Assembly: GCA_030765335.1 (NCBI GenBank)
Contig: JAVCCU010000034.1
Span: forward strand, 1-38,638
Origin: Candidatus Kaelpia aquatica
Lineage (GTDB): Bacteria; Omnitrophota; Gorgyraeia; Kaelpiales; Kaelpiaceae
Reading direction: 5' to 3'
DNA length: 38,638 bases
Part shown: positions 31,023-34,618 of the stretch, piece by piece
Position numbering within the stretch: position 1 is the first letter of the stretch
How the letters are laid out: the number at the start of each line of letters is the position of its first letter
Program-made: the position numbers and the translations under genes
The notes under the pieces: model-generated
What the model saw: the letters and a program-made list of their open reading frames with translations, nothing else
Told to the model about the DNA's origin: nothing
The model's database searches: none

Positions 31023-32438
31023 TTATCCTTTTAACACTCCTATTGGTTTCAACTTTACTACAGATTTTACTAAACCAAAATCACTTATAGTCTTCGCTAC
31101 TATATCTAAATCTTTATACCCTTCAGGAGATGCTCCGCTTATATCACCATCACCCATACGCTCTATATGCACACCTTCTTCTCTAAGCAAATTATATACA
31201 TCTTCATTTGTCGTCATCTCTTTAATCTCTTTTTTACTAATCCTTCTGCCAGTACCATGATTAACTGAAAATAGAGATTTAGAACTTTCATCTTTTGCTG
31301 CACATATATAAGACCCGGCAGTCATAGAGCCCGGCAAAGGCACAGGCTGACCTGTCTTGCTATACAAAGAATGTGATTTAATAAATGAAGGCCCAAGTGC
31401 TAAGCTAGCTCCATTTCTATGCACCCAGAACTTTCTACCACCTAAATCTTCTTGTTTTATTATTTTGTGAGCTACGTCTATAAGTATCTCCATCTTTACG
31501 TTCTTATCTATGTACTTAACCACAATATCTTGAACTAGTTTATAGGCTAAGACTCTATTTACAAAACCATAGTTTGCTGCTGCATAAGCACAAGAAATAT
31601 ATCTTCTTGCTTCATCTGAATCAGCTTCTATTGCAAAAGGCGAAGAATGGGTATTAAAATAAGCCGATCTTCTCTTAGAATACTTCTTTATATTTAAAGT
31701 GAAATGATATCTATGTTTTCTTATTAATTCCTTTAAACTCAGATCTTTTCTATCCATAAAATACTTACCAATTCTGCCGCCAAATGCTCCCGGCTCACCA
31801 TGAATCATAAATATTATCTGATCCTTTTCTATGCCCCAAGTTTTAGCAATGTCATTATCTATAACTTTACTAACTCTACTCATCTCAAGAAAATGATTTC
31901 CAACCCACATTGAGCCAAGCTTTTTAAATCCTCCTTGATAAACATCGGATGGAATATTGTTTAATACCTCTTTAAATGTAAAATCGGTATTTTTAAAGAA
32001 AGATCCCTCATCTTCGATATTTTTCTGGTCTGAATCACTTAATCCAACCCTATCTTTAGCCCATTCAACACCCTTATAGATAATGTCATTTAAATCAACT
32101 CTACTAATCTGCCAATAACTATTTTTACGATCTGAAAAAGCGTCCTTAAGATGCTTGTATATTAAGCTAATCTTATTGTGATCAAGATCTTTATAATACA
32201 AAGAGGTTTTAATAACTGTTATACCGCAATTGAAATTACTCTTAATTGCTATAGGGTATATTAAATCATCAGTATCAAATACTACTCCTGTTGGAATAAT
32301 CTCTTTTGATTTAAAGGATAAGTCGGGAAATACAGACACACTCTTTACTCCTTCCCATTTAGATATTGTCTTAATTTGATTTATTACACTGATATCAGGA
32401 GCCAAGCTATCGTTTAAGAAAAATTTGACTCTATTCAT
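31023..32438 (-). CDS. divergent RtcB-family RNA ligase-like protein
   Basis: 471 residues, co-linear with RtcB (3'-phosphate RNA ligase; guanylylates a His, uses Mn). Matching motifs: NFNCGITVIKT (68-78), VGNHFLEM (His182), FMIHGEPGAFGG (His213), AAANYGFVNR (287-295), DVAHK (His324), FWVHRNGAS, PLPGSMTAGSY, VNHGTGRRISKKE (His394, the guanylylated position), and the C-terminal KPIGVLKG. Two deviations: the metal-ligand Asp of the D-x-x-C motif is Asn68 (Cys71 kept), and the His of the earlier PDvH motif is Ser41. Its start overlaps the stop of the glycosyltransferase-kinase gene (ATGA), so the two are translated together. It may be a specialised ligase or a repurposed paralogue. Confidence 0.85.
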   Translation of the reverse strand: MNRVKFFLNDSLAPDISVINQIKTISKWEGVKSVSVFPDLSFKSKEIIPTGVVFDTDDLIYPIAIKSNFNCGITVIKTSLYYKDLDHNKISLIYKHLKDAFSDRKNSYWQISRVDLNDIIYKGVEWAKDRVGLSDSDQKNIEDEGSFFKNTDFTFKEVLNNIPSDVYQGGFKKLGSMWVGNHFLEMSRVSKVIDNDIAKTWGIEKDQIIFMIHGEPGAFGGRIGKYFMDRKDLSLKELIRKHRYHFTLNIKKYSKRRSAYFNTHSSPFAIEADSDEARRYISCAYAAANYGFVNRVLAYKLVQDIVVKYIDKNVKMEILIDVAHKIIKQEDLGGRKFWVHRNGASLALGPSFIKSHSLYSKTGQPVPLPGSMTAGSYICAAKDESSKSLFSVNHGTGRRISKKEIKEMTTNEDVYNLLREEGVHIERMGDGDISGASPEGYKDLDIVAKTISDFGLVKSVVKLKPIGVLKG

Positions 32439-34618
32439 AGTTTTAATAATGTCTCTTTAAGTCTCTCTACATTCTTATCTAAACCTTCAGATTTAACCAT
32501 TCCAACCTCATAACAGCGAACATTTGAAAGCAATGCATCTAAGACGCTTTTTCTAGATTCTGACAAGTTAAAATCCGGAACCAACCAATTGTAAAGGCTA
32601 CTATACTCCATATAATTATTCAATTCTGCAGGAATAGAACTTGAGATAATTGCCTTATTAACTGCTTCTAATGTATTCAACTCTCTTATGGTAAACTTTG
32701 AACTAAATTGAGGAAATATAAGTATATCTGGTTTAAAATTTTTAACATCATCTACTGTATTAGGGCTGTAAAAACTTTTACTGACTTTAAACCTATCTAT
32801 TTTGTTGAACTTATCTCTCCATAATAATTCACTCTCATTTTTATGTATTCTCACTAATTCATAGCAAGGATAGACTCTCTCCTTATCATAAAAGATAAGA
32901 TTATCAGAGATAAATCGTGAATCTCTATTCTGTAATAAAGATAAAGCCAAACTAGTCTTTCCTATTCCCTCCAAACCACAAATTATTAAACCAATATTAT
33001 TAAATTCAACTGCTGAAGCATGTAATATATGGGTCTGTTTAAAATATTCTAAATACCAAAAAAGAGTATAATATAAAATAGGATATGTGATTGCGAAAAA
33101 CAGCTCTTCTTGAGACCTACTAGGCAAAGCATACCTCATAGAATCCTTTAAAAACTTTCTAATCATAACAGCATTTAAGAATATTTCCCTATCTCCTAAT
33201 GTAAGATCTAACAAAACCTTCTTTTTATTATTAACCTTTTTAAGAGCTGCTATTCTATTATTTGCAATAAATGTACCAGGTCCAAGCATATTACCATCTA
33301 ATAAACTCTTGAGTTTTAAAAAATACTCATTAAAATTATTACTACACCAATTAATATTTATAGAGATTTGAGGTTTTTTAGATAGATTTGATTGCACTAC
33401 AATCTTATTAAAATATACTTTCAGATAATCCAAATACCTAGAATGATTAGCATTTAACTCTACTATTAATCCACCTATATCGATAGTCAATGGATATACA
33501 TTTTTCTTAATATATCTATAGCCTATCTTTTGACCTAGAATATCTTCCATCATACTTCTATATTGTCTAGTAATTAAATCCAAACCAAAATTTTTAACTT
33601 TATTTGACCCGTTTTTTACAAGATCATCTCTGTAATCATTATCCTTTAAAACTTTAATAACCCCAGCTGCGATACTATCTATACTATAAGGATTTACAAG
33701 CTCTGCAGCCCCTTCAGCAATCTCTCTCATTGAAGAAATATTAGAGGTTACTACTGGAGTACCGCAAGAGAAAGCCTCTGCAATCGGCAGGCCAAAGCCT
33801 TCATAAAAAGAAGGAAAGACTAATACTTTAGCTCCATTGTATAAAAATACTAAATCTTCCTGCTTTACATACCCTAAAGAGATAAGGTCTTCTTTAAGTT
33901 CATATGTTTTAATATACTCCTCTACATCCTTATAAGACTTTATATATTTACCAACTACAACAAGTTTAATCTCAGGAAATTTCTCTTTTATCTTAGGAAA
34001 TGCTTTTAATAGAGAGAGAAGATTTTTTCTAGGTTCAATAGTTGAGACAAAGAGAATATAATCATCTACTATTCCAAGCTTATGGAGTCTCTTCTTTAGC
34101 TTATTTTTATCTTCTATTACCTTATACATTGGATCAATTACAGGATATATTACCTTTGTTTTATCCTGAGCATCGGGATAGAATCTTAAGAGATCATTCC
34201 TTGTGTTATGGGATACACATACAATACAATCAACATCTTTAATTAATCTAGGTAGTGAACTAAGTACAATACTCCTTGTATCGATTGATGATAACTCCGG
34301 AGCAACCAAAGGAATAAGATCATGTATTATTAGAATACTTTTTCCATAAGGCGAGGGCTTAAATCCAAAACTTGAAGTTAGACAGATATCTGCTTTTGGT
34401 AAATCTCTTTTATAAACATTAACATACTTAATACTATTAGATTTAATGTTGGGACATCTCTTCTTAAAATCAAAGAATCTTTTTCTATAACAGAGAACTA
34501 ACTTATGCTCATTAGACCAGGATAGAGAAGCCAAGGCTTTAACTAAAGCAACAGTAAACATTCCAATACCTGTAGAAGAAGATTTTAACGTAGAATTGAT
34601 ATCAATACATATTTTCAT
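32435..34618 (-). CDS. GT4 glycosyltransferase fused to an HPr-kinase-like P-loop domain
   Basis: 727 residues. Residues 1-360 are a GT4/GT-B glycosyltransferase: STGIGMFTVALVKAL at the N-terminus, ILIIHDLIPL, CVSHNTRNDLLRFYP, FVSTIEPRKNLLSLL (190-204) and the donor site FYEGFGLPIAEAFSCGTPVV (271-290). Residues about 375-727 resemble HPr-kinase-like proteins seen with PqqD/HPr-rel clusters: LHASAVEF (532-539) then the P-loop CGLEGIGKTSLALSLL (547-562) and RFISDNLIFYD. The kinase domain could act on a sugar, peptide or protein; unknown. No Shine-Dalgarno before 34618. The gene is coupled to the RtcB-like gene by an ATGA overlap, and GT2 lies 73 bases upstream. Confidence 0.82.
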   Translation of the reverse strand: MKICIDINSTLKSSSTGIGMFTVALVKALASLSWSNEHKLVLCYRKRFFDFKKRCPNIKSNSIKYVNVYKRDLPKADICLTSSFGFKPSPYGKSILIIHDLIPLVAPELSSIDTRSIVLSSLPRLIKDVDCIVCVSHNTRNDLLRFYPDAQDKTKVIYPVIDPMYKVIEDKNKLKKRLHKLGIVDDYILFVSTIEPRKNLLSLLKAFPKIKEKFPEIKLVVVGKYIKSYKDVEEYIKTYELKEDLISLGYVKQEDLVFLYNGAKVLVFPSFYEGFGLPIAEAFSCGTPVVTSNISSMREIAEGAAELVNPYSIDSIAAGVIKVLKDNDYRDDLVKNGSNKVKNFGLDLITRQYRSMMEDILGQKIGYRYIKKNVYPLTIDIGGLIVELNANHSRYLDYLKVYFNKIVVQSNLSKKPQISININWCSNNFNEYFLKLKSLLDGNMLGPGTFIANNRIAALKKVNNKKKVLLDLTLGDREIFLNAVMIRKFLKDSMRYALPSRSQEELFFAITYPILYYTLFWYLEYFKQTHILHASAVEFNNIGLIICGLEGIGKTSLALSLLQNRDSRFISDNLIFYDKERVYPCYELVRIHKNESELLWRDKFNKIDRFKVSKSFYSPNTVDDVKNFKPDILIFPQFSSKFTIRELNTLEAVNKAIISSSIPAELNNYMEYSSLYNWLVPDFNLSESRKSVLDALLSNVRCYEVGMVKSEGLDKNVERLKETLLKL

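Follow-up and report, generated by a model that had tools for sequence, protein, structure and literature searches.

A divergent member of the RtcB family, designated here RtcB', is encoded at the end of a polysaccharide locus of Candidatus Kaelpia aquatica (Omnitrophota) and, judging from its aligned residues, has lost a site that in RtcB probably holds RNA ends, whereas the GTP-handling site is retained. The gene lies on contig JAVCCU010000034.1 (our C34), the whole 38,638 bp of which constitute the window analysed here, in a genome of 1.34 Mb, and its start overlaps the stop of a gene encoding a GT4 glycosyltransferase fused to a domain resembling HPr kinase/phosphorylase (HprK/P). A P-loop kinase gene was found no more than three genes away at all eight RtcB' loci recovered, mostly adjacent or one gene off, and this pairing of RtcB' with kinases in sugar-polymer clusters suggests that an RNA-repair chemistry has been re-used for surface sugars. 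Few RNA repair enzymes are as conserved as RtcB, and to our knowledge its chemistry, in which histidine-GMP is formed and GMP is then passed to a phosphate, has so far been linked solely to nucleic acid ends.

Identification and active site of RtcB'

The features of the pair, in coordinates of the window, are the following:

32435..34618, minus strand: GT4-HprK-like fusion gene, 727 aa (domain matches)
33530..34618, minus strand: GT4 part of the fusion, residues 1-363 (PF00534)
32438..33496, minus strand: HprK-like domain of the fusion, residues 375-727 (profile and fold search)
33020..33022, minus strand: His533 of the LHASA motif, equivalent of the HprK/P active-site His (alignment; invariant in 8/8 aligned family members)
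32954..32977, minus strand: P-loop GLEGIGKT, residues 548-555 (alignment)
32903..32905, minus strand: Asp572 of the SDN motif, DD in HprK/P (invariant in 8/8 aligned members)
32435..32438, minus strand: ATGA stop/start overlap of the fusion and RtcB' (sequence)
31023..32438, minus strand: RtcB' gene, 471 aa (PF01139)
32235..32237, minus strand: RtcB' N68, at Pyrococcus horikoshii D95, human D119 (alignment)
31464..31466, minus strand: RtcB' K325, at P. horikoshii N330, human N354 (alignment)
31413..31415, minus strand: RtcB' N342, at P. horikoshii K351, human K375 (alignment)
31257..31259, minus strand: RtcB' H394, equivalent of the GMP-accepting His404 (alignment)

The first-pass annotation had called a 727-residue fusion of a GT4 enzyme with an HprK-like P-loop domain and an RtcB-family gene overlapping its stop codon. 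Domain matches bore out the fusion, with the HprK-like part scoring below cut-offs, and the overlap was likewise confirmed, the fusion stop and the RtcB' start sharing 4 nt (ATGA) within the junction AAACTATGAATAGA. PF01139 covered the whole length of RtcB' (E=1.5e-77; 262.1 bits against a cut-off of 27), and its structural model, with a predicted local distance difference test score (pLDDT) of 85.9, matched the RtcB-GMP structure 4dwq (TMq 0.81, E=1.7e-34).

Our evidence is sequence-based and comes from ~450 sampled genomes of one phylum, the Omnitrophota, and from incomplete metagenome-assembled genomes (MAGs). In an RtcB profile search eight loci from seven genomes scored 365-768 bits, followed by a clear gap, under which the ordinary RtcBs scored no more than 267 bits; the name RtcB' denotes this upper score group, and a search of further orders added no RtcB' to the phylum-wide set. 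One borderline match (284 bits, genome G250) was counted as an ordinary RtcB and falls among these in the tree. The seven usable RtcB' sequences formed a single clade in a maximum-likelihood tree (support 100/99), outside which lay all 22 ordinary Omnitrophota RtcBs, P. horikoshii RtcB and 16 viral RtcBs. RtcB' is not the sole RtcB of the Ca. Kaelpia genome, an assumption ruled out by an ordinary RtcB on contig C30 (602 bits); one Archease gene was found on contig C26.

RtcB' was aligned with 43 ordinary Omnitrophota RtcBs and P. horikoshii RtcB, whose residue numbering is used throughout. The protein of the window retains C71, H182, H213, H324 and H394, which correspond to C98, H203, H234, H329 and H404, and every RtcB' covering the position kept C98, N202, H203, F204, E206, H234, H329, H349, R350, H404, G405, G407, R408 and K480. 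Among these are the GMP contacts N202, E206 and K480, the metal-A ligands and the GMP-accepting H404; the human counterparts N226, E230, K504 and H428 contact GMP in RTCB (PMC8668186). In contrast, three residues were replaced in all seven aligned RtcB' and intact in all 114 other RtcBs (43/43 ordinary Omnitrophota and 71/71 viral proteins): D95 (by N, R, G or E), the other four of the five metal ligands being kept, N330 (by K, E, M or D) and K351 (by N, S or T). The viral RtcBs served as a divergent control and were gathered by a pattern avoiding the D95, N330 and K351 positions; their retention of the three residues rules out general drift of divergent RtcBs as the cause of the loss. Their ordinary residues, together with the position of the 16 in the tree, also rule out a phage origin of RtcB'. 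Over the 114 scored positions conserved in ordinary RtcBs, an equal-chance model gave p ~1e-5 for the retention of 8/8 pocket residues and p ~0.003 for the presence of 3/3 phosphate-site residues among the 17 never-retained positions, both values being rough, as positions are non-independent and the residue sets were picked after viewing the alignment.

The three replaced residues belong to one functional subsite. In human RTCB the phosphate remaining from the pyrophosphate leaving group is bound by D119, N354 and K375; D119 is also a ligand of the second metal, the one in contact with the gamma-phosphate of GTP, and ligation needs all five metal ligands (PMC10944509); the RNA 3'-phosphate has been argued to bind at the same leaving-phosphate place (PMC3973293). 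Fold and score place RtcB' in the RtcB superfamily; as two defining functional-site features are absent, it is not filed as an RNA ligase. The first-pass view of the pair as including an ordinary RNA-ligase-type RtcB was not upheld, the conserved residues for the acceptor and the leaving phosphate being missing. Compared with the RtcB RNA ligases (PF01139; P. horikoshii PH1602, human RTCB), RtcB' shares the fold (TM ~0.8), C98, H203, H234 and H329, the GMP pocket, H404 and the C-terminal KG, but has also lost R190 and Q194, and its partners are P-loop kinases and glycosyltransferases in polysaccharide loci instead of Archease, RtcA or PrfH. RtcB2-PrfH (TIGR03073/PRK09588; PMC9223846) is likewise an RtcB paralogue in a dedicated operon. 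RtcB' is not RtcB2-PrfH, because its scores fall under both cut-offs (111 against 272 bits for TIGR03073, 138 against 407 bits for NF007153) and no prfH accompanies it, the gene of the window being flanked by the GT4-HprK fusion and an intergenic region.

Kinase partners and gene neighbourhoods

The kinase near RtcB' is HprK-like at five loci and thymidylate-kinase-like (TMK-like) at three, and genes overlap at several of them. The arrangements are:

Window: GT4-HprK fusion, then RtcB'
G013: GT2, RtcB', standalone HprK-like gene
G246, contig C2: HprK-like gene, two methyltransferases, RtcB'
G246, contig C160: HprK-like gene adjoining RtcB'; stops and a frameshift break the locus, low-coverage contig
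G144: second GT4-HprK fusion, LPG_synthase_TM-like protein, RtcB'
G060, G168 and G441: GT4-like gene overlapping or abutting RtcB', TMK-like P-loop protein (PF02223), LPG_synthase_TM-like protein

By comparison, at 52 ordinary-RtcB loci (~1.5-kb flanks) no neighbour matched the GT4, HprK, TMK or LPG_synthase_TM queries. The most informative cluster is that of G144, where GT4-HprK, LPG_synthase_TM-like, RtcB', PMT-like, GT2 and formyltransferase/deacetylase genes follow one another, an order largely collinear with that of G060 and G441 (GT4, RtcB', TMK-like, LPG_synthase_TM-like, PMT-like, GT2, formyltransferase/deacetylase). Identities of G144 to G060/G441 are 61-63% for the GT2, 44-46% for the PMT-like protein, 39-43% for the formyltransferase/deacetylase, 37-48% for a second GT2, 25-27% for the LPG_synthase_TM-like protein and 29-30% for RtcB'. 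Because these clusters are largely collinear and their shared genes 25-63% identical, the predicted HprK domain of G144 stands in for the TMK-like protein, the kinase being exchangeable and RtcB' constant. In three genomes' glycan clusters (L146, L147, L148) the TMK-like P-loop protein lies between RtcB' and the LPG_synthase_TM-like membrane protein, and dTMP is unlikely to be its substrate.

In the sample examined, RtcB' never occurred without a neighbouring kinase, whereas the kinase can do without RtcB'. HprK-like genes overlap or abut a gene of the polysaccharide pyruvyl transferase family (PF04230) in G304, G429 (L096), L094 and a MAG labelled 'Spirochaetes' (L098), the PF04230 proteins being 42-55% identical, and in G288 a GT2-HprK fusion adjoins an NTP_transf_5 gene, with no RtcB'. 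A second pairing of the kinase, with PF04230 instead of RtcB', is conserved in four genomes, at L083:7539-8645, L094:10969-12159, L096:11049-12152 and L098:1390-2511. Hence fusion or coupling of the HprK-like kinase to glycosyltransferases recurs, with at least three fusions (GT4 in the window and G144, GT2 in G288). Conservation of the GT4 fusion as such is ruled out, as kinase and glycosyltransferase also occur unfused and the glycosyltransferases differ; the kinase was also met alone, as a GT2 fusion and, away from RtcB', in overlap with a PF04230 protein. The first-pass suggestion of a single process behind the three activities gains support: the pairing recurs in G013, G246 (twice) and G144, and with a TMK-like kinase in three more genomes, while the GT4 fusion proved dispensable.

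The GT4-HprK-like fusion protein

The GT4 assignment is firm in score (PF00534, residues 185-339, E=2.5e-39, 135 bits against a gathering score of 26.4), with a weak match to the N-terminal GT4 domain PF13439 at residues 96-163. GDP-mannose-dependent PimA and BshA-type enzymes are among its sequence relatives of known structure; the solved relatives were uninformative about the donor sugar, GDP-mannose, UDP-GlcNAc and glycogen-synthase-type enzymes all matching. The C-terminal domain gave a weak PF07475 match (residues 527-576, 25.9 bits, under the 33.3-bit cut-off), and once excised it matched NCBIfam HprK_rel_B (E=1.6e-7) and HPr(Ser) kinase (E=2.1e-6), both far under cut-offs. His533 and the P-loop are present; the acidic pair reads SDN, with a single Asp. 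With regard to the HprK fold expected at first pass for residues 375-727, a fold search on their AlphaFold model (pLDDT 85.9) showed a resemblance: all 16 PDB matches with E<0.001 were HprK/P (probability 0.87-1.00), but the structures superpose loosely (TM to target no higher than 0.43, root-mean-square deviation at least 7.6 A). The domain shares the arrangement of His, P-loop and Asp with HPr kinase/phosphorylase (PF07475) and with the HprK-related kinases A and B (TIGR04352, TIGR04355), but lies under all curated cut-offs and has SDN for DD; it also differs from these kinases in a separate N-terminal region and in the fused or adjoining glycosyltransferase. It is HprK-like and no classified HPr kinase. 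Close relatives were detected in 6/384 sampled genomes of the phylum, weaker ones including that of G144, and named relatives come nearly all from Candidatus Omnitrophota MAGs.

Proposed role of RtcB' and alternatives

The simplest reading of the retained GMP side, the neighbouring kinase and the coupled glycosyltransferase would be a sequence of kinase, guanylyl transfer and glycosyl transfer. The HprK-like domain, fused to GT4, would use ATP to phosphorylate a hydroxyl on a sugar or on a growing glycan, a TMK-like enzyme taking its place elsewhere; RtcB' would transfer GMP to that non-RNA phosphate to yield a GDP-linked unit; and the coupled glycosyltransferase might then use the activated unit. 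We put this scheme forward tentatively, at somewhat less than an even chance. That RtcB' is the first RtcB-type enzyme to work off nucleic acid ends, as a guanylyltransferase (or ligase) that uses GTP and acts on phosphates which exchangeable kinases have put on glycan precursors, seems to us nearly as probable as not. In its logic the scheme resembles pathways of the fucokinase/GDP-fucose pyrophosphorylase (FKP) type, where a kinase acts, GMP is transferred to the phosphate and a glycosyltransferase follows; the kinase and putative guanylyltransferase of the RtcB' locus lie outside the known families. Literature searches on RtcB in polysaccharide clusters, RtcB in Omnitrophota and 'HprK-related kinase' returned no relevant description.

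Ordinary RtcB proceeds in three steps, formation of His-GMP, transfer of GMP to the 3'-phosphate and attack by the 5'-hydroxyl (PMC3973293). According to the alignment, RtcB' retains the guanosine-side needs of the His-GMP step, with the subsite for the other phosphate rebuilt. An end point at -ppG would fit the behaviour of P. horikoshii D95A, in which Archease restores guanylylation of the 3'-phosphate and not ligation (PMC3973293), and the capping of DNA 3'-phosphates with GMP by RtcB (DNA3'pp5'G; PMC4499129), where GMP also passes from His to a phosphate and the reaction ends at -ppG, but where the substrate is a nucleic acid 3'-phosphate and not, as proposed for RtcB', a phosphate of a glycan pathway.

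Several observations weigh against this proposal. Human RTCB D119A guanylylates weakly and does not ligate (PMC10944509), and loss of D95 could therefore mean low activity unless compensated. RtcB' was encountered at just eight loci among the ~450 genomes, in one phylum, and some of its branches are long, which makes its placement uncertain. HprK-like genes also have PF04230 or GT2 as partners and lack RtcB' there. At one G246 locus HprK and RtcB' are separated by two methyltransferases, and the second copy is broken. Finally, surface-polysaccharide loci are gene-dense and fluid, which makes chance adjacency likelier.

Four other explanations are considered, in decreasing order of probability. 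The foremost is that RtcB' runs the complete reaction on glycans, the GMP-activated phosphate being attacked by a hydroxyl of another sugar, lipid or protein to give a phosphodiester and GMP. The locus evidence is the same as for guanylyl transfer, the native third step of RtcB does form a phosphodiester (PMC3973293), HprK enzymes target a macromolecular hydroxyl, and the fusions of glycosyltransferase and kinase suggest action on a growing chain. We nevertheless regard it as unlikely: every RtcB' is without D95, and ligation was not rescued in P. horikoshii D95A, though 3'-phosphate guanylylation was (PMC3973293), and was absent in human D119A (PMC10944509).

Alternatively, the genes might be chance neighbours or share a common transfer, the HprK-like domain putting phosphate on a glycan and RtcB' serving an unrelated step or being inactive. 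The HprK-like genes found without RtcB' beside PF04230 proteins (G304, G429, L094, L098) or fused to GT2 (G288), and the broken copy in G246, speak for such an arrangement. It appears decidedly unlikely in view of the kinase near RtcB' at 8/8 loci, which comes from two unrelated families with several gene overlaps, and of the clear constraint on active-site residues across highly divergent RtcB' members.

It is also quite improbable that RtcB' remains an RNA enzyme, in repair, defence or regulation, riding in surface-polysaccharide islands, although it belongs to an RNA ligase family with its fold and most catalytic residues retained, and polysaccharide islands frequently bear cargo genes. RNA, which had been named among the possible substrates of the coupled system, is disfavoured because the subsite for the RNA 3'-phosphate and leaving phosphate is lost, against its retention in the 114 other RtcBs, because RtcB' has kinases and glycosyltransferases for partners instead of Archease, RtcA or PrfH, and because the 5'-OH substrate of RtcB would be blocked by a 5'-kinase. 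An ordinary RtcB and an Archease elsewhere in the genome argue in the same direction.

Modification of a protein or peptide, also raised at first pass, with HprK phosphorylating Ser as in HPr and RtcB' guanylylating or cross-linking the phosphoserine, is very improbable: HprK does target protein serine and distant HprK-like genes (L088-L091) cluster with radical-SAM-like and PqqD-like short genes, but no obvious substrate peptide or PqqD-like gene adjoins the pair in the RtcB'-linked loci read, and the kinase that takes the place of HprK in collinear clusters, a TMK-like protein, comes from a family of small-molecule kinases. The context of L088, L089, L090 and L091, without RtcB', is of the type seen for ribosomally synthesized and post-translationally modified peptides.

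Should guanylyl transfer to glycan-precursor phosphates prove true, RtcB chemistry would have been recruited to cell-surface synthesis, providing a new sugar activation route for surface polysaccharides. RtcB' also offers concrete test cases for the role of the D95/N330/K351 subsite, and a starting point for finding new kinds of sugar activation or glycan linkage in the Omnitrophota, a phylum known chiefly from metagenome assemblies.

Genomic surroundings and minor observations

The fusion and RtcB' stand at the end of the polysaccharide locus, which is encoded on the minus strand and contains upstream:

34692..35432, minus strand: GT2 glycosyltransferase of the same polysaccharide locus (domain match)
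35580..36803, minus strand: Wzy/O-antigen-ligase-like membrane protein (domain match)
36882..38638, minus strand: UDP-GlcNAc 4,6-dehydratase-like protein (PseB/FlaA1-type), truncated by the contig end (domain match)

In G003, a genome of the same family, the same GT4 start is present (79% identity) on a contig that stops inside the GT4, after 154 aa; the remainder of that genome gave no HprK or RtcB' match. GC content drops to 30-32% over 32000-36000 of the window, where the GT4-HprK and GT2 genes lie, from the 38-40% that prevails over most of the contig's left part; this is consistent with a horizontally acquired polysaccharide island. RtcB' is followed by ~600 bp (30428-31022) without a convincing gene, in which one TTG-start open reading frame (ORF) of 89 aa lies at 30595-30864, and beyond this gap by an AAA_14/DUF4143 ATPase gene (29276-30427).

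Among the ordinary Omnitrophota RtcBs, eight ORFs (L039, L046, L050, L051, L053, L058, L059 and L138) encode 883-891 aa, ~400 aa over the usual length. The DINCG motif is split in these long proteins, as if by an intein at or near the catalytic Cys98, and NCBIfam holds a model for intein-containing RtcB.

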